From contig JAJYDE010000043.1 in NCBI GenBank assembly GCA_021777755.1, forward strand, positions 1-34,790: a stretch of DNA of 34,790 nucleotides, read 5' to 3'. The number at the start of each line of letters is the position of its first letter. Within the stretch, counting starts at the first letter, position 1. The notes below the pieces were generated by a model. The model made no database searches, had not been told where the DNA came from, and worked only from the letters and a program-made list of their open reading frames with translations. Shown one piece after another: positions 5,071-20,478 of this stretch. Origin of the DNA: Deltaproteobacteria bacterium. Lineage in GTDB: Bacteria > Desulfobacterota > Syntrophobacteria > Syntrophobacterales > Syntrophobacteraceae. A program made the translations under genes and the position numbers.

Positions 5071-5913
5071 ATGGGCGCCGAAAAAATCCGGGAATCGGCG
5101 ATTGCCGGGACCTGGTATAGCTCCGATCCGGTCATGCTGCAAAAGGAACTGGCCGGATACCTCGACCGGGCGGACAAGCCGGTCCTGGACGGAGAACTAG
5201 CCGGTCTTGTCGTCCCTCATGCAGGCTACATCTATTCGGGCGGCGTGGCCGCTCGCGCCTACAAACTTCTTTCCAAGGACATGTTCGACAGGGTGCTCAT
5301 CATGGCCCCGAGCCACAGGGCCGGATTCACCGGAGCGAGCATCTCGGTTGCCGATGGATACCGCACCCCTCTGGGGGTAGTGCCGCTCGACCGCCATTTG
5401 ATCGAAGAGTTGCGAAAACACGCAGATATCATAGGATACAATCCCGGCGCCGAATCGGGCGAGCATTCCCTGGAAATCCAGCTTCCATTCCTGCAGTCGG
5501 TGCTGGGAAGTTTCCGGCTCACGCCGCTCCTTGTCGGCACGCGCGCTCCCGAGTTCTGCATGAGGCTCTCGGAGGCCGTTGCCGGGGTCTGCGGTCAACA
5601 TCGCGTGCTGCTGATCGCCAGCAGTGATCTTTCCCACTACCACCCCGATGAAACGGCAAGGCGACTTGACGGGGTATGTTTAAAGCTGCTCGAAGCGTTG
5701 GATCCCCACAAACTGGCCGAGGAAGTGGAAAACCGCGGAACCGAGGCCTGCGGGGCGGGGCCGATGATAACCCTGATGCACGCGTGCAAAAAGCTTGGCG
5801 CCAACAGGTGCAAGATCCTGCATTACGCCACCTCGGGCGATGTGACGGGCGACCTTTCCGGGGTGGTCGGCTACGCGGCGGCGTCCATCTGCAAGGGGGC
5901 CGAAAATGGGTGA
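5071..5913 (+). CDS. amrB: MEMO1-like protein (AmmeMemoRadiSam system protein B)
   Basis: 280 residues matching the MEMO family throughout. The putative metal/active-site residues are present: His50 (VPHAGY), His82 (APSHR) and Cys227 (EACGAGP). The family segments GEHSLEIQLPF and SSDLSHYHPDE are also there. Human MEMO1 binds metal through His49, His81 and Cys244, which these three residues match by position. The bacterial function is not settled; it is usually encoded with AMMECR1 and a radical SAM protein. The start follows AAGGGAG, and the last 8 bp overlap the AMMECR1 gene, indicating coupling. No radical SAM gene of that system is nearby. Confidence 0.93.
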   Translation: MGAEKIRESAIAGTWYSSDPVMLQKELAGYLDRADKPVLDGELAGLVVPHAGYIYSGGVAARAYKLLSKDMFDRVLIMAPSHRAGFTGASISVADGYRTPLGVVPLDRHLIEELRKHADIIGYNPGAESGEHSLEIQLPFLQSVLGSFRLTPLLVGTRAPEFCMRLSEAVAGVCGQHRVLLIASSDLSHYHPDETARRLDGVCLKLLEALDPHKLAEEVENRGTEACGAGPMITLMHACKKLGANRCKILHYATSGDVTGDLSGVVGYAAASICKGAENG

Positions 5914-6487
5914 GCATAAAGCGACTGTGACCAGGAAAGCCGGAGTGGACCTTGGCTTTAGCGCCGAAGAAAAGCAAAAGCTGCGCGAGTTGGCCCTTGG
6001 CGCCATTCGCGCCCGATGCCTGGGGCTGGCGATGCCCGAAGTTCACATCGATGAGCCTCGGCTCAAAGCGCTCGGGGCCGCTTTTGTCTGCATCCACAAG
6101 GGCCGCGAGCTTCGCGGATGCATCGGAATGCTCGAAGCCCGCACGCCCCTTTGTGAAACGGTGACACGCATGGCCGTGGAGGCCGCATTCGGCGACCCTC
6201 GATTTTGCTCCCTGGACTCCGGGGAACTCGACGCGATAGACTTGGAGATATCGGTCCTCACCCCGATGCGGCCTGTTGGCGAAATCTCGGAAATCCAAAT
6301 CGGCAAACACGGTCTTTTCATTCGAAAGGGATTTCGGGCCGGACTTTTGTTGCCGCAGGTCGCAACCGAACACGACCTCGACGTGGAACGGTTTCTCCAA
6401 TGGACGTGCCACAAGGCCGGGCTGCCTGAAGGAGCCTGGAAAGACAAAGATATCGAAATATTTGTCTTTTCCGCCGACATATTTTGA
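5906..6487 (+). CDS. amrA: AMMECR1-domain protein (AmmeMemoRadiSam system protein A)
   Basis: 193 residues with the signature LRGCIG (69-74), preceded by FVCIHKGREL and followed by the conserved AAFGDPRF and LDLEISVLTPM-type segments, as across the AMMECR1 family. Biochemical function is unknown in bacteria. The ATG at 5906 lies within the end of the MEMO1-like gene (8-bp overlap), so the two are made together. The next gene starts about 15 bp downstream behind its own strong ribosome site. Confidence 0.92.
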   Translation: MGEHKATVTRKAGVDLGFSAEEKQKLRELALGAIRARCLGLAMPEVHIDEPRLKALGAAFVCIHKGRELRGCIGMLEARTPLCETVTRMAVEAAFGDPRFCSLDSGELDAIDLEISVLTPMRPVGEISEIQIGKHGLFIRKGFRAGLLLPQVATEHDLDVERFLQWTCHKAGLPEGAWKDKDIEIFVFSADIF

Positions 6488-8313: not shown

Positions 8314-10611
8314 TCACTGCTCCGTGAATTTTTTTGCCAGACCATTGTCGATCACGTACAGGCACACTTCCTTGGCGCTGTTTTCGGAGTAGCCGAAGCG
8401 GGCCCTGAGATTGCCCATGAGCAGGGAGACGTCCTCCCGGATCCGCTTGTCGTAGGTCTTGAAGCTTTCGGTCATGTAGTCTTTGACGGCGCCTCTGAAG
8501 TTGTCGTTTTTGAGGAAGGGATCGAGCACGTTTTCTTTCAGGTTATGGACATAGCGATCGTGCAGCGATTGATACAGGCCGGTTTGCGTAACATGTTTTC
8601 CTTCGATAAGAATCTCCCGGGCAAGGGTTTTGGAGGCGTAGATGTTTTGGGCCTCCTTTCGGAAAGCCTTGCGTTTTTCGGCCGGCGAACGATTCCCCAA
8701 AACTTTGCCCTCGATGGCGTCGAAGAGTTCCTCGGTTATTTTCAGCTCCTCGTTGGTATAGTGGCATTTCTGCGTCTGGCCGATTTCGAAGTTCACCGCG
8801 AACAGATAATTTTGAATCTGCCGGGAAATGTTTTCTTCATTGTAGTCATAGAGCGCTTCCTTTACCTCCTGCAGGATCGTATAGTCGTAGAGGGCGCTGA
8901 GGGCATCGAAAAAATCGGGTGCCACGGGCCCCTCCGCGCAGCAGTGCTTTTTGAAATAGATGTTCAACATGGCCATGGTGATGGGCTTATCCTTTTTCAT
9001 GTAAGCCTGGTAGAACTCGTTGAACATCCTGATCGAATCTCTTCCGGTAAATCCTCTATCCCCTTCGGACTCGGATTCGGCAATGATTTTGCGCCTCTTT
9101 TTCGCCGTGAAATTTTTTCGGTCCTCCTCGGAGAGCCAGGCGGGGATAACCCCGGCGTAAATGTCCATTTTTAGCAGCAAGAGATTCCTGTCGCAATAAT
9201 TGCGATAATGCCCCGGGTCGGGTATCCACTCGGCCATGGCCGTGGATTGGGGATTGAGTCTGGAGGAAATGATTATTTTAGCGAAATTTTCCAGGACCCT
9301 GGGAAGGAAATATTTTTGTATTTGATTGCCGAAGATGTTCTTATAGATTTTTATTTCAGTATTATAATCTAGCACATAAGGTATTTTCACATAGGTGATG
9401 CGATCCGCAAAAGACTGGGTATCCGAAATGTTCTCACGATCTTCGGGATTCATGAGGGCGAAGAAAAGCGAATTGACATTTTCCTCTATGGAATCGACTT
9501 TATGGACTCCCTCGCTTATGATTCCATGTAAATTGCCGAACCGCTCCTTGTTATGGTCCTTGATGTCCATTACGGCGTAGATGCCGTTATTGGTGTTGGC
9601 ATACCTGGAATAGAGGTAGCGCACTCTATTGCTGTCCATGAGCAGAGTATTGAGTTGGTTCTGGATATGGTCATCGCTTACGATATTCATTCTGTCGGGT
9701 CTATCACCGGGGTTGAATACGCTGATGCCCGTTCCGAGCCTCCTGTTGAATAGAGTTCTTCGGGCAAACACCATTTCGAAGACCTTCGACGGCGAGTCCA
9801 GAATATCGAGAAGGGCGTGGTATAAAGACTGGCAGATCGTACAGGGGCTGTCTTTAAACACCCATTCGTATTGTTTGTGAGAGAAGAGCTTGTGTTTGAA
9901 GGACCTGTCGGCGATCAAGGCCTCGAAGAAATCCTTGCGGTATGCCTTGGGAATCAGGAGCAGTGGACTGTCGTGGCTCGGGCAGGCGATTTCGAGCCAT
10001 TGTTTGCCTGCAAACTCCGCCGGCGCGGATTCGGGCGGTTTAAACTCTCCGGCGGAGCGGTCGACGATGTTTCGCAACTGCTCGACAAGAAGCTGCGCGG
10101 TCTGATCGGTCCCGTTTCCCAAAAGTTTTCTGTTAAGCCGCCAAACGGTTTCATAGCTTGCCCCTTCATCGGTTTCAGAATATTTTTCAAATTTCATCAG
10201 CACGTTGTTTAGAAACGTACTCTTTCCGCACCCGTGGGGTCCCTCGAAAATGTAGATTCTGTTTTGCCTGATACCGCGCCTGAAGGAGGAGATATGTTCC
10301 ATAAGCCTGTTTACGAAAAGGCGGTCACCGAAAAAGGGCCGGTCGGTTCCCTCTTCCAAAAGGCGGCTGCAGTCATAGGGGACGTACTTGATCGATTCGG
10401 GATCATCGGGGTATTCATCGACACCCAAATCGATGTAGCTGTGCATCATGTCATAGAACATCTGGAAGATATTGCGGAAGATACGTTCGGGGAAGGCGAC
10501 CGCAAGATCGATAAAGTCCGGGAAACTCAAAAGGGTTCTGCGTCCCCGTTCTTCTATTTTGGCGCAAAGTTCGCCAATGGCGCGTCGTCCATTTTCCATT
10601 TCAAACTCCAT
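8314..10611 (-). CDS. Second PrkA-type AAA+ serine kinase-like protein
   Basis: 765 residues. An N-terminal extension of about 95 residues precedes the PrkA AAA+ core. The P-loop GPHGCGKST lies at about 124-132. PrkA-family landmarks follow: a CPSHDSPLLLIP segment, a Cys pair in SPCTIC, then the ISVFNPGD and YVKIPYVLDYNTEIKIYK stretches that parallel YeaG. The C-terminal part is helical and charged. E. coli YeaG and Bacillus PrkA are serine kinases with an AAA+ fold; activity here is inferred. The ATG overlaps the spoVR stop codon (TGATG), so the two are coupled. It is clearly diverged from the operon's first PrkA and is not a recent duplicate. Confidence 0.85.
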   Translation of the reverse strand: MEFEMENGRRAIGELCAKIEERGRRTLLSFPDFIDLAVAFPERIFRNIFQMFYDMMHSYIDLGVDEYPDDPESIKYVPYDCSRLLEEGTDRPFFGDRLFVNRLMEHISSFRRGIRQNRIYIFEGPHGCGKSTFLNNVLMKFEKYSETDEGASYETVWRLNRKLLGNGTDQTAQLLVEQLRNIVDRSAGEFKPPESAPAEFAGKQWLEIACPSHDSPLLLIPKAYRKDFFEALIADRSFKHKLFSHKQYEWVFKDSPCTICQSLYHALLDILDSPSKVFEMVFARRTLFNRRLGTGISVFNPGDRPDRMNIVSDDHIQNQLNTLLMDSNRVRYLYSRYANTNNGIYAVMDIKDHNKERFGNLHGIISEGVHKVDSIEENVNSLFFALMNPEDRENISDTQSFADRITYVKIPYVLDYNTEIKIYKNIFGNQIQKYFLPRVLENFAKIIISSRLNPQSTAMAEWIPDPGHYRNYCDRNLLLLKMDIYAGVIPAWLSEEDRKNFTAKKRRKIIAESESEGDRGFTGRDSIRMFNEFYQAYMKKDKPITMAMLNIYFKKHCCAEGPVAPDFFDALSALYDYTILQEVKEALYDYNEENISRQIQNYLFAVNFEIGQTQKCHYTNEELKITEELFDAIEGKVLGNRSPAEKRKAFRKEAQNIYASKTLAREILIEGKHVTQTGLYQSLHDRYVHNLKENVLDPFLKNDNFRGAVKDYMTESFKTYDKRIREDVSLLMGNLRARFGYSENSAKEVCLYVIDNGLAKKFTEQ

Positions 10612-12239
10612 CACAGCAGTATCCTCGAAAGGCGCCTGTTTTTCATGGTGTAGAGCACCCTCTGCTGAGGCGGCTCCATCTCCGCGGGAGGGTGTGCCTC
10701 ACCGGGATGGATTTCACGCGCCCTTTCGACGGGCTCCGAGGTTTCGAGCTTTACCGGAGCGCCCCACAGGTATTCGATACCCATCATCGTGTTGGCGATG
10801 AACTCTTTTACCAGCGGTTTCCCCTCGAAACGGTGGTTGAGGTAGAGGCAGTTATCCTCCGTGTTGGACCGGTCGACTTCTATGAAGGGAGGATGATAGA
10901 GCTGTTCGAGGAGCATTTGCCGGTACTGCCCCGCTTCCCTGCTGCGAACGTAATACTCGCGGGTCCCCTTGTCGGGGTTGATTCTGATGCCGGTCACAAA
11001 GAGTTTGTGGCGATCGACGAATTGCTGGTCCACAAACCTGTTCAGGAACATGAAATCATCGTAATCTTCCCTGACTCCGAAGATATAGTCGAGGCCCGAA
11101 CCGGTGGCTTTATCGTAGTCGCGGCGAAGGCCGCTGTCTTGGATCCTTTGGAAATCGAAGGAGATCCTGCCCTTGTCGGCCATCTCTTCGATGTGGCTGA
11201 AAAGCCTCATCCCCAGGGCATACGGGTTTATGCCCACCCTTGGCAGGGAAGTGACGAAGGCATTTATCCGGGCAAAGCCCACCTCGTTGCCGCTGATGCG
11301 GTCGTCTAACAGGAAAAGCTTCTCGTGCCAGTAGCTGGCCCAGCCTTCGTTCAAAATTTTTGTGCGTATCTGGGGCTGAAAATAGAGCGAGGTCTTACGA
11401 ACTATTTCGATTACCGACTGCATCCAGCGGTTTTCTTCCGCTTGCAGGAAAGGGGAATTGAGCAACAGGAATTCAAGGAGATCCCGGGCTTGCCTTCGCC
11501 CCTTCCTTTTGTGTCTTCCGAAAAGAGCTTCAAATTCCGGATAAGTCCTTATGACCTGCGAGAAAAACAAGGTCTCGGCCATTTCGCCGTATTGGCGTAC
11601 CGCTTCGTTGTAGCGGTCGATCTCCTTCAAGTATTCGATGAGGTTGACATTTCGGACGGACTGCAGAAAAATGTCGAAGTAGAAATCGAGCTTTACCGAA
11701 GTCTTGATTTGCTGAGACTGGTTGATTTCGGACAGCTCGGAATGGAACCCCACGAGGTTGTCGATGCTGCGGCTGAATTCGATCACGTAGTCGACCCAGC
11801 GCCCCTTTTCGGAGCGAAGCATGGCTATGGCCCGCTTGTCGGAGAGGGCCCGCCCGGCGAAATCTTCCCCCCAGGTGTGTTTGAAGAACATGTTGTTTTG
11901 GAAAAAATCGATGTGGCCCAGCACGTGATAAAAAATCATCACATTCAGCCAGTCGGGATTGTTGTCGTTATAAAACGAGATGGCCGGGCGCGTATTGATG
12001 ACCGTCTCATAGGGGTTATTGGGGTAGAGTTCGTAGCGGCCTTTTTCCTTTAGCACTTCGATGTCGTTTACCCAGTAATCGTAGAGGGTGGGGATCATGT
12101 GCTTGGAGGAAAGCTCGATCAGGTCCTTATTGGTCACGATGTATTCGAGCGTTTCGTCTCCAAAGCGCAGCCCGCAATTTCGGGCTCGCTCCTTGCACCC
12201 TTCCATAATCTTCTTGGTGTGCTGATTGATTAGCTCCAT
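10611..12239 (-). CDS. spoVR: SpoVR-family protein
   Basis: 542 residues, recognisable by the N-terminal YDYWVNDIEV and the MIFYHVLGHIDFFQNN block, with histidines typical of the family, and a following WGEDFAGRALSDKRAIAMLR region. The C-terminus is Pro/Glu-rich. SpoVR is needed for cortex formation in Bacillus, but most proteobacterial homologues belong to non-sporulating cells and travel with PrkA and DUF444; the biochemical role is unknown. It lies 15 bp after the DUF444 stop, and its own stop overlaps the next start. Together these show a single operon. Confidence 0.93.
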   Translation of the reverse strand: MELINQHTKKIMEGCKERARNCGLRFGDETLEYIVTNKDLIELSSKHMIPTLYDYWVNDIEVLKEKGRYELYPNNPYETVINTRPAISFYNDNNPDWLNVMIFYHVLGHIDFFQNNMFFKHTWGEDFAGRALSDKRAIAMLRSEKGRWVDYVIEFSRSIDNLVGFHSELSEINQSQQIKTSVKLDFYFDIFLQSVRNVNLIEYLKEIDRYNEAVRQYGEMAETLFFSQVIRTYPEFEALFGRHKRKGRRQARDLLEFLLLNSPFLQAEENRWMQSVIEIVRKTSLYFQPQIRTKILNEGWASYWHEKLFLLDDRISGNEVGFARINAFVTSLPRVGINPYALGMRLFSHIEEMADKGRISFDFQRIQDSGLRRDYDKATGSGLDYIFGVREDYDDFMFLNRFVDQQFVDRHKLFVTGIRINPDKGTREYYVRSREAGQYRQMLLEQLYHPPFIEVDRSNTEDNCLYLNHRFEGKPLVKEFIANTMMGIEYLWGAPVKLETSEPVERAREIHPGEAHPPAEMEPPQQRVLYTMKNRRLSRILL

Positions 12240-12254
12240 TGCCTTGGTCCCGCG

Positions 12255-13577
12255 TCAGGAAAGTAGTTTTCTGATTCCCTCTATGAGCCGGACTTCCGTT
12301 GCGCTCTCGCCAACATTGTCCATTCGAATCGCCTGAGGAAATTCTTCGAGAAGGCCGGAGCCCGACAGATACTTTTCCACAACCGATGAGCCCCCGAGGT
12401 TCGATCCCGCGATGGTGACGCCCACCCTGTTGGCGTAGGCGAGAGTTTTTCTGATTTGGGGAAGCGTGTTTTGCCCCTCGGAATCCCAGTCGTCTCCGTC
12501 GGTGCCGTGGAAAACGTAGATATTGTAGTCCCGGGCAAGGCTTTCGGCCTCGACGATCTCGTTTACCAGCCGGTAGGCCGACTCGACCCGGGTTCCGCCC
12601 GCCACGATGGAGTTGTAGTAGGAGTAGAAATCGGGGACTTCCTTTGCCGTCGTATCATGGAGAATGAATCTGGTTTCCACCTGTCTTTCATACTGGTAGA
12701 GAAGCCAGCTGTAGATGAGCACGTGCTGGGTAACCACGGCCTCGGTGGGCTCACCGGCCATCGAACCCGAATAATCTCTCAGAAAAAAGATCATGGCCTG
12801 CGATTCATAATCCTTTTCCTTCGAAAGAATGCGGTAGACTTCGTCCTGGGGGGAAACCAGGAACTGCGAAGGGTCGATTTCCCCGTCATGAGCGATTTTG
12901 CCAAGACTGATATTGGTCTGGATGATTTTTTTAAGAGTGGCCTTTTTATCGAGCAACTGTCCGTTTCTGTCATGCCTGTCGGTCAGATCGTAGGTGTAGC
13001 GGGTAAGCGAGCGTTTCGAGCCCTTGTTTTTCAAATTGGGCAACTCGAATTTTTCCCCCAGGACTTTTCCAAGATCGTAGGCGCTCGATTCGATTTCATG
13101 CTCGGCGCCTTCCCCCTGGCCCGGCCCCGAACCCGAGCCTTCCCCGGAGCCATCGGCGGGCTCCTCTCCAATCACCTCCCCTTCTTCTCCTTGGCCCGTT
13201 CCGCCCGAGGAACTCTCTTCCCCCGGCTCCCCACCCCTTATGTCATGGATGAATTTTTCCTCAACCGTTGTGGGGACCAGGATGATTTTGTCCTTGCCTC
13301 CCCGGCCGGGCTTGACAAGCCTTCCGACTCGGATCTTTCGCGGAAAACCGTCTATTTCGCGCTGCTTGTCGCGTTCCAGGAGTTCGTCGATGGCGCTAAG
13401 GCTTTGAACGTGAGAAGCTAGGGAAGGCGATGAGTTTTGAATAAAAACCATGTCTCCACCCCAAAAGGCCAGGTCCTGAGCCCGAGGGCCAAAACCGGCC
13501 GGTTCGCTCGTTTGCTTCGCACGGTCCGAATGTTCTTCGGTCTTGATTTCAGCGGAATCGAAAATTCCTTTTTCCAT
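12255..13577 (-). CDS. DUF444/YeaH-like von Willebrand A domain protein
   Basis: 440 residues, close to E. coli YeaH. The N-terminal part carries a Gly/Glu/Ser-rich low-complexity linker, then a von Willebrand A-like domain with the metal-site motif RDYSGSM (DxSxS) and later conserved GGTRV and HGTDGDDWDSEG segments. YeaH is encoded with the kinase YeaG and is induced by starvation stress; it may act as a substrate or scaffold. ATG 13577 is chosen because AAAGAGG lies 6 bp upstream; an in-frame TTG at 13607 lacks a site. A 39-bp gap separates it from the first prkA. Confidence 0.92.
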   Translation of the reverse strand: MEKGIFDSAEIKTEEHSDRAKQTSEPAGFGPRAQDLAFWGGDMVFIQNSSPSLASHVQSLSAIDELLERDKQREIDGFPRKIRVGRLVKPGRGGKDKIILVPTTVEEKFIHDIRGGEPGEESSSGGTGQGEEGEVIGEEPADGSGEGSGSGPGQGEGAEHEIESSAYDLGKVLGEKFELPNLKNKGSKRSLTRYTYDLTDRHDRNGQLLDKKATLKKIIQTNISLGKIAHDGEIDPSQFLVSPQDEVYRILSKEKDYESQAMIFFLRDYSGSMAGEPTEAVVTQHVLIYSWLLYQYERQVETRFILHDTTAKEVPDFYSYYNSIVAGGTRVESAYRLVNEIVEAESLARDYNIYVFHGTDGDDWDSEGQNTLPQIRKTLAYANRVGVTIAGSNLGGSSVVEKYLSGSGLLEEFPQAIRMDNVGESATEVRLIEGIRKLLS

Positions 13578-13616
13578 GGGACGCCTCTTTGCCGTTTTTC
13601 CTGCCAATCACCCGGT

Positions 13617-15683
13617 TCAGTTCTCATCGGTTTTGGTGCAAAAGTATTCCACGGTTTTCTGGGCGCAGGTCCGGCAGTATCCCAGCTTTTCGAGCATGGC
13701 GTTTATAATGCGGTCATAGAGCTTCTGGTTTTCCTCGTTTGTGCGGTTGGCAAGGGCCCCTATCAGGCTGCCCGCCCCGGCGATATCCGATTTCAGCCGC
13801 ACATCGGTGACCGCTTTCACCAGTTCCAGATTGTCCATGAAATCGTAATCCCGATCGGTGGACATCTTCTGGCCGTAAATTTTGCGGATCGAGGTCCTGA
13901 AGGATTCCATCTGTTCCCTGGTCTTTAGCCCGAGCCGGTCTTCGACGCTTTGAATGTAGCGCTCGTCGATCTTTAGGGCCTTGAGTTCCCCGGTTTGCGG
14001 GTTTTTGTATTTCCACATGCGGTCGGGGCCGAGGTCCTCGGCGTCTATTCCGATTATCATGTTGACGTAGTTCATCACGTCTTTGCGGATGGCGTGGGGC
14101 TCATCCATATAGGCGTTGAACATCTCGGTCATGATCCGTTCCCGGTAGAGCCCCTTGGCGATGTTGAGATCGTCGAGAAACTTCGCCCGATCATTTACCT
14201 CCGAAACATAATCCAGGATCACCCGCTCGATGGACCTGAAGATGTCGTAGGCGAACATGCATTGCCCTTCGTTGGTCTCAGAGGTTTCCATGAGCAGTTG
14301 GACGGCCCTGCCCAGATTTCGCTGCCCCAGTCCCTTCTGGCCGAACCTCTTGGTGATATCGGCCTCATGGTTTAGCGAGTCGATCACCTCGGCAAGCGTC
14401 TTTATGCTCTTTTCCCCGGCGACTTCCCCGGCCGCGAGCTTCATCGTTTCGATGGGAGTCAGTTTTTCGGACTTGGGCAGCCGGCTCAGCACCACGGCCG
14501 CGGATGCGGCGCTGTTGAGATTGGGGTCCTGATGGAGCTTTTCCTTGGTCAGGGTCGTTTTGGCCTCGCTGCCTATGGCATAGGAGGTCAACTTTTCCTG
14601 GAGGCGGTAATCGGTGTTGTGGGCCACGTAGCATATCCTGCACCGATCGACGATGGGCGCCTCTTCTTTTTCCGCAAGGAACCTGTTGAATTCGGAGTTG
14701 TTGCTGGTGGCGATGATAAGTGTGTCGATGGGCCAGCGAAAGCCGTCGATTTCTATGTTCCGGTTCTGGATAACCCCCAGGTAGACCTGGACGAGGTCTT
14801 TTTTGTTCTTGAAGATTTCATCGCTGAAGTGGATGCCTCCCCCCGCGACCCGGGCCAGGGCGCCCCGCCTCAGATCGAACCGGTAGGGGTTGTTGAGATC
14901 CGAGATGTGCAGCAGCCTCTGGATCGATTCTTCTCCCAGAAGATCGACCGCCGATGAAGTAATCTTGTCCTTGGCCGAATATTTGCCGGTCATTGTGCCC
15001 ATGCTTTCGCTCAGGGGAACCGGCACGACTTCAAAAAAGCCGAGCAGCTTTTCGAGATCTCCCTTCGCATAGTCCCTTATCTCGTTCATGATGTAATCGC
15101 TGCATGCCCCGAGAGGCCTGAAGCTGAGATAGAGCTTTTCGATCTGTTCATCTGAAAACCCGGCCGATTCGGACAGAAACCGCCTGTTTTTCTCACTGGA
15201 CTCGAAAATATTCATGGCCAGGATCATGGGGTCTTCGAAGGTTTGAGACTGTAGGGACCTTATTTTGCCGTAGCTGCCAAGAGCCGCCAGGTTCTTGATG
15301 TTGAAGGTGTATCTGCGGTTTTCCTCGCGAGCCACAAAATTGCGGTACAGGGCGCACAGATAGTCGACGAAGAAGGTCTTTCCGTTGCCGGGTTCGCCAA
15401 CAAGGACGTAAGCCATTTCCCTCGATGAACCCCCTTCGGCGGCATCCTTTACGAACGAGACAAAACTGTTGATCTCGTCATACATTCCTATCACGTGTCT
15501 GGGCAAGGTCCGGAAGATCTTGAAATCATAGGTGCTCTTGCCGTTTACCATCACTTTTTCCGTTGCCAAGTGTTCATCGAGGATCATTCTGGCAACGGCC
15601 TGGTAGGCGTTTTCAAAACGTCTTTTCCCCTGCCTCACCTGCTCGATATGATATTGAAGGCTTCTGGCGTTGTTCGATTCCAT
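13617..15683 (-). CDS. prkA: PrkA/YeaG-family AAA+ serine kinase
   Basis: 688 residues. The Walker A motif GEPGNGKT (about 96-103) opens the AAA+ core. A GGGIHFSDEIFKNKKDLVQVYL block and an IIATSNNSEFNRF sensor segment match YeaG-type proteins. The C-terminus ends in a Cys cluster, CRTCAQKTVEYFC, resembling a half zinc-binding site. PrkA proteins phosphorylate serine in partner proteins under starvation. ATG 15683 has an AGGAG site 6 bp upstream, and family N-termini begin near this segment; in-frame starts up to 15755 exist but are less supported. It is first of four genes, followed by DUF444, spoVR and a second prkA-like gene. Confidence 0.92.
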   Translation of the reverse strand: MESNNARSLQYHIEQVRQGKRRFENAYQAVARMILDEHLATEKVMVNGKSTYDFKIFRTLPRHVIGMYDEINSFVSFVKDAAEGGSSREMAYVLVGEPGNGKTFFVDYLCALYRNFVAREENRRYTFNIKNLAALGSYGKIRSLQSQTFEDPMILAMNIFESSEKNRRFLSESAGFSDEQIEKLYLSFRPLGACSDYIMNEIRDYAKGDLEKLLGFFEVVPVPLSESMGTMTGKYSAKDKITSSAVDLLGEESIQRLLHISDLNNPYRFDLRRGALARVAGGGIHFSDEIFKNKKDLVQVYLGVIQNRNIEIDGFRWPIDTLIIATSNNSEFNRFLAEKEEAPIVDRCRICYVAHNTDYRLQEKLTSYAIGSEAKTTLTKEKLHQDPNLNSAASAAVVLSRLPKSEKLTPIETMKLAAGEVAGEKSIKTLAEVIDSLNHEADITKRFGQKGLGQRNLGRAVQLLMETSETNEGQCMFAYDIFRSIERVILDYVSEVNDRAKFLDDLNIAKGLYRERIMTEMFNAYMDEPHAIRKDVMNYVNMIIGIDAEDLGPDRMWKYKNPQTGELKALKIDERYIQSVEDRLGLKTREQMESFRTSIRKIYGQKMSTDRDYDFMDNLELVKAVTDVRLKSDIAGAGSLIGALANRTNEENQKLYDRIINAMLEKLGYCRTCAQKTVEYFCTKTDEN

Positions 15684-15750
15684 CTCCAGCTCCTGGCTTA
15701 CGATTTTTGGGCCGTTATGCATCAGACTCTCTAGGGTCGGCCACATGGGA

Positions 15751-15766
15751 TTCAATATTTATGCCA
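15751..15766 (-). promoter_or_regulatory. Sigma-54-like promoter element upstream of prkA
   Basis: On the minus strand TGGCAT-AAATA-TTGAA resembles the sigma-54 -24/-12 pattern (TGGCAC-N5-TTGCA), but the -12 GC is GA. It lies about 70 bp upstream of the prkA ATG. In E. coli the yeaGH genes have been linked to sigma-54, which makes the match notable; by sequence alone it is imperfect. Confidence 0.35.
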
Positions 15767-16076: not shown

Positions 16077-16921
16077 GGGGAGCGGCCTGCGCGGGATTTG
16101 ACCCGCAAAAGGCACAAGTACTTCATCGGAGGCCTCGATCCTTGCGCTTCCATCGAGTTTGCCCGCGGTTGCCAATGGGATTGCTCCTTTTGCGGCGCAT
16201 GGACTTTCTACAATCGGACCTATCGGAGCGTGGCCCCGGAGATCGCCGCGCAAAATTTGGCGGCCATAAGCGAACCCGATGTGTTCATTACCGATGATGT
16301 CGCCTTGGTTCATCCCGAGCAAGGTTTCGCAATCGGCGGGGAGATTGAGAAGCGCGGGTTGCGCAAGAGGACCAATACGGGAATCAATTTCAGGGCGTTG
16401 GAAGCGGCCAGGAAGATAGGGCTGGTCGTTGCCCTCAACATCATTGCCGACCCGGACCGGGATGAAAATCGATTCGAGACGGTGCGCAACTGGGCGATGG
16501 ATGTCCCCGAAATAGTCCCCCTGACGGTGAAAACTCCTTACACCGGCACGGAAATCTGGTTCAAGCAGGCCCCGGAACTTACCACACTCGGTTATCGCCT
16601 GTTCGACATTCAGCATGCCGTCGTGCCAACAAGGCTTCCATTGAAGAAGTTCTACGAGGAACTGGTGCGTACGCAGGCTGTTCTAAACCGAAAACATCCG
16701 GGATCGAGGGGCCTGCGGGATGACTTCGGAATGGCGGCCGCACTAGCTTTTCAGGGGCAGACGAATTTTATCAACATGTTGTGGAAATTCAAAAAAGCGT
16801 ATCATCCGGCACGCCAACTAGCAGACCATGGGCGGCAAATCCGATACCGGCTCACCCCCCCCCGGCAAAAACCGCCCCGCCGCCTTCCCGCAAGGCCGCC
16901 TATATTCACGAAACGCACTGA
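16077..16921 (+). pseudogene. Decayed HpnR-like B12-binding radical SAM gene
   Basis: The readable part begins RPARDL, the join between the B12-binding and radical SAM domains of HpnR-type hopanoid C-3 methylases. It continues with KYFIGGLDPCASIEF and the cluster motif CQWDCSFC (Cx3Cx2C). Three lesions are seen. The B12 domain is absent, with a TAA at 16074 just upstream. About 45 residues that the family carries after GLRKR are missing, the frame resuming at INFRALEAARKIGL. At a 9-C run (16855-16863) the frame slips: one more C would give a short tail ending at TGA 16919-16921, like the family C-terminus. The identification as HpnR rests on remembered family sequence; any close B12 radical SAM methylase is possible. 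Confidence 0.65.
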
Positions 16922-16943
16922 TGGAACAGCAAGGTTTTCAACA

Positions 16944-18113
16944 TCAGCCCATGGTCCTCCGATATTCCTGGTCCATTTTCAACCCCTCGATATCAGTTGT
17001 TTTTTCACCGCGAGAGGATTTGATCCGATCGATGTTTCTTTTTACGACCGCGCGCCGGTTTGCGAAGGCGAGAGCGGTTTCCTCCGAGACTCTGCCCCGC
17101 TGGTAAAGCTTGGAAATGTTGGCGTCGAAGGTGGTCCATCCCTGGTGTTCGGATTGTTCCATCATTTCGTAGAAAGTCTTGCCCTCGGCTTCACCGTTCA
17201 TGATAGCCTCCTGGACCCTGAGGCTTGAGCCCATGATTTCGAGGGCCGGAACACGCCCGCCGCTCACTTTGGGCAGAAGTCTCTGAGAGATTATCCATTT
17301 CATGCTGTCGGCCAGGCGAATACGGATAAGCCGCTCCTCATCGAGTTCAAACATGCCCACGATGCGGTTGACAGCCTGACCGGCATCGGTAGTATGCAGC
17401 GTGGTCAGCACAAGGTGGCCGGTTTCGGCCGCGCTCAGTCCGATTTCCACGGTCTCGCGATCACGCATTTCCCCGACCAGTATGACCTTGGGGGCCTGCC
17501 TCAAAGCGGCGCGCAGGCCGTTTGCAAAGGTATCGAAATCCAGACCCAGCTCGCGCTGATTGAAGGTGGCCTTGAGCTGCGGATGGACGAATTCCACCGG
17601 ATCTTCGAGAGTCACCACGTGGTAGGGATACCGTGAATTGATTTCGTTCAAAATCGAGGCCAGGGTGGTTGTCTTTCCGCTGCCGGTCGCACCGGTGACA
17701 AAGACGATTCCACGCTTTTCATCGGCAACCTTTTTGAGCACCGCAGGCAGTCCCAGTTCGTCCACCGTAAGGATCCGGGTCGGGAGCTGCCGCATGGCGA
17801 TCGAATAGGTGCCGCGTTGGGAAAAGATATTGACACGGAAGCGGGCCCGGCCAGGCAGGTGATAGGATATGTCGCACGATCCGGAGTTAAGGAGTTGCCG
17901 AATGCCGCGGATGTCGCCGCCCACCAGGTTCATGGCTATGGTTTCGGTGTGAAACGGGGTCAGGGTGTTGATGCCAAAATTTTTACACACCTGCCTTAGC
18001 AGGCCGTCGACCTCGACTTGCATGGGTTTGCCCACAGTGAAATTGATATCCGATGCAGTGGGATTCTCATCGAGAATACCCGTCAGAAGCTCATCGAGTT
18101 CTTTCTGTCTCAT
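16944..18113 (-). CDS. PilT/PilU-type twitching motility ATPase
   Basis: 389 residues with all PilT landmarks: Walker A GATGSGKTTT (about 141-150), Asp box TLEDPVEFVH, Walker B ILVGEMRDRET and the His box TGHLVLTTLHTTDA. It lacks an N-terminal domain of PilB type, so it is a retraction-type ATPase. The closing segment is extended and basic. ATG 18113 follows a purine-rich GGAGGAAGGA site; an in-frame start at 18257 would add 48 unrelated residues overlapping the upstream gene. It lies 79 bp downstream of a second PilT, with no pilin, PilB or PilC gene nearby. The family also includes PilU. Confidence 0.9.
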   Translation of the reverse strand: MRQKELDELLTGILDENPTASDINFTVGKPMQVEVDGLLRQVCKNFGINTLTPFHTETIAMNLVGGDIRGIRQLLNSGSCDISYHLPGRARFRVNIFSQRGTYSIAMRQLPTRILTVDELGLPAVLKKVADEKRGIVFVTGATGSGKTTTLASILNEINSRYPYHVVTLEDPVEFVHPQLKATFNQRELGLDFDTFANGLRAALRQAPKVILVGEMRDRETVEIGLSAAETGHLVLTTLHTTDAGQAVNRIVGMFELDEERLIRIRLADSMKWIISQRLLPKVSGGRVPALEIMGSSLRVQEAIMNGEAEGKTFYEMMEQSEHQGWTTFDANISKLYQRGRVSEETALAFANRRAVVKRNIDRIKSSRGEKTTDIEGLKMDQEYRRTMG

Positions 18114-18192
18114 GATCGTCCTTCCTCCCTCGCACCAGGCAGCCGCGGGCTCTGCCATCCGGCGCGCCCCTCGCCCTGGCGAAACGCGGCCT

Positions 18193-19275
18193 CTAGACCT
18201 CGGTAAAGTCCTGAGGAGGCTCGGTAAGGTATTGGCGAAACTTATCCTTGTCCACACATTTCATATAGGCTTCAGCCGGGTCGATTCGGCCCGCCTTGAG
18301 GTGAGTGGCTATGGCATCGTCCAGGGTCTGCATGCCGTACTTTTTCCCCGTCTGAAGCGCCGAGGGGATTTGATGGGTCTTTGATTCACGAATCATGGCC
18401 CTTACCGCATGGGTTGCTATCAATATTTCGAGAACCGCGATGCGCCCCTTGACATCGACACGTTTAAAAAGCGCCTGCGAGACTACCGCCCGGATACCGT
18501 CGGCCAGGGTCGAACGAATCTGCGCCTGTTCGCCAACGGGGAAGACCTCGATGATGCGGTCGATGGTCTTCGGGGCGCTCTGGGTGTGGAGAGTGGAAAA
18601 AACGAGATGGCCGGTCGCGGCCGCCTCGACGGCCAGACGGATTGTCTCCAAATCCCGCATTTCACCCACCAGGATTATGTCGGGGTCCTCGCGCAGTGAG
18701 GCCCGAAGCGCCGCGGAAAAAGTCCGCGTGTGCGTGCCGACTTCCCGGTGATTTATCAGGCAGCTCTTGCTCGTATGGACAAACTCTATGGGGTCTTCGA
18801 TTGTGATTATGTGCTCTTTTCTCTTGCGGTTGGCCTCGTCGATAATCGCGGCAAGCGTTGTGGACTTGCCGCTTCCGGTGGGGCCGGTCACCAGAACGAT
18901 CCCCCGGGGCAGAAGGGCCAGCCGGTTTATGACCGCGGGAAGGCCAAGCTGCTCGACCGACAAAATCTCGCTCGGGATCTCCCGGAAAACCGCTCCGATC
19001 CCGTTTTTTTGAATGAAAAAATTGACCCTGTAACGGGCAAGCCCCGGGATTTCATAAGCGAAATCGAGGTCGCCGGTTTCCTCGAATATCTTGACCTTGT
19101 CCTCGGGGGTGATCTCGTAGAGCATCGTGCGCAATTCGTCGTCGTCGAGGACCCTGTATTTTACCCGCTCCAAATCGCCTCGAATCCTCAAAACCGGCTG
19201 CTGGCCCGAAACCATGTGCAGGTCGGAAGCCTTCTGTTCGTTCATGAGCTTGAAAAAAGCATCAATTTTAGCCAT
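18193..19275 (-). CDS. pilT: PilT-type twitching motility ATPase
   Basis: 360 residues. It starts MAKIDAFFKLMNEQKASDLHM, close to canonical PilT N-termini, and carries Walker A GPTGSGKSTT (about 131-140), Asp box TIEDPIEFVH, Walker B ILVGEMRDLET and TGHLVFSTLHT. The C-terminal RESKTHQIPS resembles PilT's AIRNLIRE-type motif. PilT powers type IV pilus retraction. The ATG at 19275 has AAGGAGAG upstream; GTG 19362 would start near the -10 region of the predicted promoter, so it is rejected. It is first of a two-gene unit with the other PilT-type ATPase. Confidence 0.93.
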   Translation of the reverse strand: MAKIDAFFKLMNEQKASDLHMVSGQQPVLRIRGDLERVKYRVLDDDELRTMLYEITPEDKVKIFEETGDLDFAYEIPGLARYRVNFFIQKNGIGAVFREIPSEILSVEQLGLPAVINRLALLPRGIVLVTGPTGSGKSTTLAAIIDEANRKRKEHIITIEDPIEFVHTSKSCLINHREVGTHTRTFSAALRASLREDPDIILVGEMRDLETIRLAVEAAATGHLVFSTLHTQSAPKTIDRIIEVFPVGEQAQIRSTLADGIRAVVSQALFKRVDVKGRIAVLEILIATHAVRAMIRESKTHQIPSALQTGKKYGMQTLDDAIATHLKAGRIDPAEAYMKCVDKDKFRQYLTEPPQDFTEV

Positions 19276-19376
19276 GCGCTCTCCTTGGCCAGTTGCGGAA
19301 TTCGGAATCCGCCACAGGGATATTCGACAATTCCGTCCAATAGCTTTAAGCCGACCTTGCACATTATTATCTGCTC

Positions 19377-19488: not shown

Positions 19489-19516
19489 TTGTAAATATCC
19501 CCAGTTGTGCTATATT
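19489..19516 (+). promoter_or_regulatory. Promoter for the first polycationic protein gene
   Basis: TTGTAA (19489-19494), 16-bp spacer, TATATT (19511-19516), about 80 bp before the ATG at 19597. The divergent pilT promoter lies about 100 bp to the left; nothing else is seen in 19276-19596. Confidence 0.5.
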
Positions 19517-19596
19517 CGCCCGCGACAATCATGCTCGACAAAAAACCGACGGGATTGAAAGCCCCGCCCGAAAGGCTTTCACACAGAGGAGATTCC

Positions 19597-20478
19597 ATGA
19601 GATTTCGCAATATGCTCATGTTGACGGTTTTGGTATCCATTCCACTTCTTTTGGCGCCCGGCTGCTTTGCCGCCGACACAACGCCAAATGGCCCGGCCTC
19701 CAACCAGGAGCAGACCAAAGCACCCCCTCAAGGGCAGCCCCAGCCCCCCGCACAGGGCCAAAATCAGGGCCAGGTGAACGACAAGGTTCGCCAACTCCAG
19801 GAACAATATCAGCATCTGTTGAAACACGAGTACAATCCTTCCAACTACCATCCGCAAGCCACCGGCAAGCCTTCTTTCAATAAACCCGGCTGGCTGAACC
19901 ACTCCAAGCATCGGGCCGCAAAAAGGGGTTCCCGCCACCATCGAAAATACAGCCGTCACGGGCGAAAGTCCTACAGACACGGGAAGCGAAGAAGCGGTAA
20001 ATTCGCGCTGAGCAGCCATTCGAAAAAAGCGACCCGCTCTCATGCCCTGTCGAGGAAAACCAGATCGGCCCGAGGTTCAAAGGCCGCGGGGCGCAAATTC
20101 CATAAACGCTCGAAGATGGCTTCCAAAAGGCGAACCTCAGCCCGCCATTCGGCCGTCAAGAAATCACGCGGGAAATCGTCGAGACACCACAGGGCCACGA
20201 CCCGCAATTCGCATAAACGTCCCGGAACCTCCTCGAAAAAGAACGCTTCAAAAAAGCGAGCTTCGGCAAAACATTCGGCCACCGGAAAATCGAAGTCCGC
20301 CTCGGACCGCGGACGGGCCGCAACCCATCGAGCATCGGCCAAAAAAACCCGCCGCGGACACAACTCCGCCAAAGCCGCCCATCCAGGAAAAAGTGGTAAA
20401 AAGAAGGGCATCGGGAGCCGCAAAGCCCGGCGGAATTCGGGCAAGTCCAAGAGCGGAGAAAAAAAACATAAAAAGTGA
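19597..20478 (+). CDS. Exported, extremely basic Lys/Arg/Ser/His-rich protein
   Basis: 293 residues of unknown family. An N-terminal signal sequence (hydrophobic 6-20, likely cut after CFA near 25) is followed by a Pro/Gln-rich linker to about 60, a short helical region (about 60-80), and then roughly 190 residues made almost entirely of Lys, Arg, Ser, His, Ala and Gly. Two degenerate 42-residue repeats begin ASKRRTSARHSA (about 175) and ASKKRASAKHSA (about 217). Composition resembles histone H1 tails, but the signal sequence places it outside the cytoplasm. ATG 19597 follows AGAGGAG. It precedes a second, shorter polycationic exported protein. Confidence 0.7.
   Translation: MRFRNMLMLTVLVSIPLLLAPGCFAADTTPNGPASNQEQTKAPPQGQPQPPAQGQNQGQVNDKVRQLQEQYQHLLKHEYNPSNYHPQATGKPSFNKPGWLNHSKHRAAKRGSRHHRKYSRHGRKSYRHGKRRSGKFALSSHSKKATRSHALSRKTRSARGSKAAGRKFHKRSKMASKRRTSARHSAVKKSRGKSSRHHRATTRNSHKRPGTSSKKNASKKRASAKHSATGKSKSASDRGRAATHRASAKKTRRGHNSAKAAHPGKSGKKKGIGSRKARRNSGKSKSGEKKHKK

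Follow-up and report, generated by a model that had tools for sequence, protein, structure and literature searches.

Our analyses show that a member of the Syntrophobacteraceae carries a single minus-strand operon, transcribed in the order prkA-A, DUF444, spoVR and prkA-B, in which two diverged PrkA-type genes flank DUF444 and spoVR, and that this four-gene set is standard in its group rather than a local oddity. The data directly support the existence of this module, its conservation, an ancient split between its two PrkA proteins and the differences in their motifs. We propose, with a confidence that stands about midway between doubt and conviction, that it may be an AAA+/VWA remodelling module in which PrkA has been split into two obligate partners that would act jointly with DUF444 on SpoVR. 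The role of PrkA/YeaG has been disputed for decades, as a kinase, a protease or neither. A lineage in which PrkA is divided between two obligate partners would, if real, provide a handle on which of its motifs serve hydrolysis and which serve structure, as well as on which of the two partners pairs with DUF444 and which with SpoVR.

Gene content of the operon

The window, that is, the whole stretch of 34,790 nucleotides of DNA that was analysed, had previously been described from its letters alone. ORF positions and Pfam matches agree with that sequence-only reading on the four minus-strand genes, the outer two of PrkA type around DUF444 and SpoVR, and both P-loops that it had named (GEPGNGKT and GPHGCGKST) are read in the sequence. 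The operon comprises the following features:

15751–15766, minus strand: sigma-54-like -24/-12 element TGGCATAAATATTGAA, ~68 bases before ATG 15683
13617–15683, minus strand: PrkA-A, PrkA-family AAA+ ATPase (PF06798 4e-37, PF08298 1e-15)
15375–15398, 14817–14819 and 13638–13676, minus strand: P-loop, Walker-B Glu codon and C-terminal CxxC...C of PrkA-A (motifs invariant in 36 orthologues)
12255–13577, minus strand: DUF444 (YeaH-type) VWA-like protein (Pfam DUF444 8e-32, NCBIfam PRK05325 2e-202)
10611–12239, minus strand: SpoVR (YcgB-type) protein (Pfam SpoVR 2e-57)
8314–10611, minus strand: PrkA-B, second, diverged PrkA-family AAA+ ATPase (PF06798 4e-45, PF08298 5e-10)
10216–10242, 9973–9984, 9832–9843 and 9565–9567, minus strand: P-loop, zinc-type CPxH, CxxC and Walker-B-position Asp of PrkA-B (motifs invariant in 49 orthologues)

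The coupling of the second PrkA-like gene to spoVR, already noticed in the first reading, is visible at the junction, where the start of prkA-B (ATG 10611) overlaps the spoVR stop as TGATG; the same overlap is found in five close relatives and a short gap in most others. Two open frames extend further upstream, that of DUF444 to TTG 13607 (span 12255–13607) and that of PrkA-A to TTG 15755 (13617–15755). For PrkA-A, the start is probably ATG 15683, which is preceded by AGGAG, because TTG 15755 sits within the promoter-like element and close relatives start at this ATG. The two inner proteins retain the motifs of their families: the metal-site motif DxSxS...T...D of the DUF444 VWA domain is conserved as DYSGS / GGT / TDGDDWD (74 sequences), as are the His/Glu motifs HV..H and NEGWASYWHE of SpoVR (63 sequences).

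Elsewhere in the window, the plus strand carries a pair of overlapping genes for Memo and AMMECR1 (5071–6487), and a tandem pair of PilT/PilU-type (T2SSE) ATPase genes lies on the minus strand (16944–19362). A radical-SAM-like ORF (16098–17228) has a weak match and seems cut on its N-terminal side, and another ORF (19507–20478) codes for a protein with a signal-like N-terminus, a long tail rich in Lys, Arg, Ser and His, and no Pfam match.

Two PrkA homologues with different motifs

Both PrkA-A and PrkA-B score above the Pfam cut-off of 25 bits with the two PrkA models (128.6 bits with PF06798 and 57.9 with PF08298 for PrkA-A; 155 and 39.3 for PrkA-B), and both fall far under the 576 bits that NCBIfam PRK15455, the model of ordinary PrkA/YeaG, has as its curated cut-off (49.2 and 23.2 bits, respectively). 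Judged by these profiles, they belong to the PrkA family, yet both lie outside the ordinary PrkA/YeaG equivalog. Profile comparison gave E-values of 7e-27 for PrkA-A and 1e-35 for PrkA-B against ordinary PrkA, and of 1e-4 for A against B, the link of each to ordinary PrkA thus being much clearer than their link to one another. In searches of PDB sequences, PrkA-B matched 9xip, a PrkA structure, and nothing credible was found with PrkA-A.

The P-loop, the sensor Asn and the Arg just after it are invariant in PrkA-A (36 sequences) as well as in PrkA-B (49). At the Walker-B position, which was assigned from alignments rather than from a solved structure, Asp-Glu is found in all 36 PrkA-A sequences, Glu in ordinary PrkA and Asp in all 49 PrkA-B sequences; in these alignments, PrkA-B is a diverged PrkA homologue without the Walker-B Glu of ordinary PrkA. 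Each of the two proteins shares a different cysteine motif with ordinary PrkA: the zinc-type CPxH...CxxC insert is present in PrkA-B and missing from PrkA-A, and the C-terminal CxxC is present in PrkA-A and missing from PrkA-B. The C-terminal cysteine cluster that had been singled out as distinctive is therefore an ordinary PrkA trait. Likewise, the 95-residue N-terminal extension attributed to one of the proteins does not exist, since PrkA-B has 123 residues ahead of the P-loop, as against ~95 in PrkA-A (counted from ATG 15683) and ~100 in an ordinary PrkA.

Distribution and gene linkage

A scan of named genomes with PrkA-A retrieved 462 relatives, and the best 80 of these were used for the study of loci. 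Nearly all of the best 80 of 462 are labelled as deltaproteobacterial or Desulfobacterota, with a few records labelled otherwise, and they range from Syntrophobacteraceae and Desulfacinum to Desulfobacterales and Geobacter. The order A-DUF444-SpoVR-B occurs in 58 of these 80 loci, which come from many families of the phylum, and most of the remaining loci stop at a contig edge. The neighbourhood survey suggested in the sequence-only reading thus recovered the second PrkA in the same four-gene order, and the novelty attached to this gene is largely lost: it is common, and a two-PrkA set has been reported in haloarchaea (PMC3102087). Within the limited open literature, we found no paper on the Desulfobacterota two-PrkA cassette.

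In a hit-list tally over 395 genomes of the phylum, the A/B pair occurred in 26, a second two-PrkA cassette in 4 and ordinary PrkA alone in 23; this sample overlaps the phylum sample used for the co-occurrence test, and layout was checked at locus level. The second cassette (type II: PrkA-DUF444-SpoVR-PrkA) was observed in four genomes (L047, L048, L049 and L046), and there, too, the last PrkA carries Asp in the Walker-B position. That ordinary PrkA and the A/B cassette exclude each other was considered and rejected: their overlap in the phylum sample is about that expected by chance, and 6 of 11 genomes in the window's genus (G000, G334, G335, G339, G341 and G342) have both. The window's own genome carries an ordinary three-gene cluster on another contig. 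A mobile origin was rejected as well, with only three distant plasmid PrkA proteins found in the PrkA-B search and only distant PrkA in Thermus phages in the PrkA-A search. One of these phages, YS40_Isch (L148:1626-7752), encodes DUF444, SpoVR, a 616-residue protein and PrkA in a row, the 616-residue protein having no PrkA match and no family assigned.

Six genomes (G254 and G297–G301) have a disrupted or reordered operon. All six nevertheless encode B and SpoVR at other sites, and this retention is good evidence for a joint role of the four proteins. At one locus (L091:10004-13162), a lone PrkA-A gene adjoins a DUF58 gene, B and SpoVR being found elsewhere in the same genome.

The position of the breaks bears on an alternative that we consider possible, if short of an even chance, namely that one pathway uses two distinct homo-oligomeric AAA+ machines, one built of A and acting with DUF444, the other built of B and acting with SpoVR. 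Gene order sets each PrkA beside its supposed partner, and in at least one genome, G299, a break between DUF444 and SpoVR has left the pairs A-DUF444 and SpoVR-B, which fit two separate machines equally well. G298 shows a similar split, but this may be an assembly fault, as B is cut by the end of a contig, with its tail ~10 kb away from the copy of A-DUF444. Against two machines, G300 has its break between SpoVR and B, in G254 every junction but A-DUF444 is broken, and a self-sufficient motor would be expected to have the Walker-B Glu that PrkA-B lacks.

Kinases or AAA+ machine

The sequence-only reading saw in the two proteins a kinase pair, or a kinase-substrate relay around DUF444. Two diverged PrkA-type proteins are indeed there, but as kinases they are weak candidates, and we regard this reading as improbable. 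In its favour are the family name, the description of PF06798 in Pfam as "kinase C-terminal domain" and the in vitro kinase activity of E. coli YeaG, as reported in work that PMC4664914 cites. However, the P-loops and Walker motifs are those of an AAA+ domain, and PrkA from B. anthracis, once purified, showed negligible activity as a kinase or as a protease (PMC13001217).

Structure prediction, which had been proposed for each of the two proteins, yielded an AAA+-like AlphaFold2 model for PrkA-B (pLDDT 81.7), with a C-terminal half made almost entirely of helix, which may also speak against a kinase; the prediction for PrkA-A had a pLDDT of 46, and the fold comparison covers the PrkA-B model alone. 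This model resembles ORC, NorQ, ChlI, clamp loaders, Clp and other AAA+ proteins (Z ~9-11, VIA-align), NorQ and ChlI being tied with many other AAA+ chains. The PrkA structure 9xip is absent among the fold matches listed, and Foldseek gave no match at E<=0.001. There is no protein kinase among the 50 fold matches listed, which barely cover the C-terminal part and so do not demonstrate the absence of a kinase fold there. Overall, the pair is more suggestive of a two-subunit machine for protein remodelling than of signalling kinases.

Phylogeny and selection

The existence of two clearly diverged PrkA types was borne out by phylogeny. In maximum-likelihood trees, PrkA-A (support 100/100), PrkA-B (99/98 and 100/100) and ordinary PrkA (98/97 and 97/97) form separate clades joined by very long branches, and A and B are ~16% identical; on these trees, the A/B split is ancient and each type is a separate old clade. 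A candidate grouping, which would join PrkA-B and the second type II PrkA in one clade, has a p-AU of 0.24, and the placement shifts once A is omitted. PrkA-B evolves faster than its partner, with 49–60% identity to its orthologues versus 73–80% for PrkA-A, and, as measured against close loci, it is under purifying selection (dN/dS ~0.06–0.08, with dS near saturation).

That PrkA-B might be a recent, decaying duplicate of PrkA-A or of ordinary PrkA, the outcome that would have undone the original observation and that its faster evolution and missing Walker-B Glu might suggest, can be dismissed with near certainty, because A, B and ordinary PrkA fall in three separate deep clades; low dN/dS, the invariance of the P-loop, zinc-type insert, sensor and Arg residues in 49 PrkA-B orthologues, and the retention of PrkA-B even where unlinked also speak against it.

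Upstream promoter-like element

The sigma-54-like element noticed upstream of the operon is ordinary by composition alone (12 matches to the pattern in the window versus 15.4 expected), and its -12 part reads TTGAA instead of the consensus TTGCA. Comparison with relatives was more favourable to it. The element is the sole conserved block in seven aligned upstream regions of close relatives, and 16 of 56 upstream regions have a sense-strand site at p<=0.05, compared with 1 for the antisense strand, these loci being related and hence not independent. The sigma-54 gene (rpoN) is present in the window's genome. A sigma-54-type (starvation) promoter upstream of prkA-A is plausible; in E. coli, yeaGH is bound by NtrC and required in sustained nitrogen starvation (PMC4664914).

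A putative two-subunit PrkA machine

In the mechanism that we propose, the four genes would function as a unit, an enlarged version of the PrkA-DUF444-SpoVR (YeaG-YeaH-YcgB) stress/starvation system, possibly expressed from a sigma-54-type promoter, in which the single PrkA AAA+ ATPase would be replaced by two obligate partners. In favour of such a system, E. coli YeaG mutants in Walker A and other sites were unable to complement (PMC4664914). One of the two partners, PrkA-A, has the catalytic Walker-B Asp-Glu. The other, PrkA-B, has an intact P-loop with Asp in the catalytic position and is probably either a slow ATPase or a regulatory or structural subunit; the Asp is compatible with retained hydrolysis and does not prove its loss. 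A and B together would form an AAA+ assembly, for which we infer a joint ring, and this assembly would dock the VWA-type DUF444 protein via the metal site of the latter. We also infer its activity, the part played by SpoVR and the starvation trigger: under nutrient limitation, it may remodel SpoVR or a client bound to SpoVR. In a more specific form, to which we give tentative credence, the module would be a hetero-oligomeric PrkA machine made of a hydrolysing A and an obligate ATP-binding B with a fixed Walker-B Asp, driving a DUF444 VWA adaptor on SpoVR, the features of a single PrkA being divided between both.

Comparison with known systems

The families clustered in the window are the same three as in E. 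coli (YeaG-YeaH-YcgB) and Bacillus (PrkA-YhbH-SpoVR), the E. coli module having a stress and starvation role (PMC4664914). Unlike in this ordinary module, there are here two diverged PrkA proteins, both outside the ordinary clade, rather than one. The cassette also resembles MoxR AAA+/VWA pairs, such as NorQ-NorD (PMC13036017), in setting an AAA+ gene beside that of a protein with a VWA-type metal site; NorQ and ChlI, each of which has a VWA protein as its partner, are among the fold matches of the PrkA-B model, tied with many AAA+ chains. By contrast with MoxR pairs, PrkA has a long C-terminal domain and the module has two AAA+ proteins plus SpoVR. No MoxR Pfam match was found in the window's PrkA proteins, and the resemblance to NorQ-NorD is one of anatomy, which does not establish membership. 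In gene content alone, the cassette is like the haloarchaeal cluster, each combining two PrkA-like genes with single DUF444 and SpoVR genes. According to PMC3102087, this combination is always present in haloarchaea and its PrkA-like genes are neighbours, whereas the PrkA genes of the window bracket DUF444 and spoVR. The two-PrkA form thereby extends beyond haloarchaea and is widespread in Desulfobacterota.
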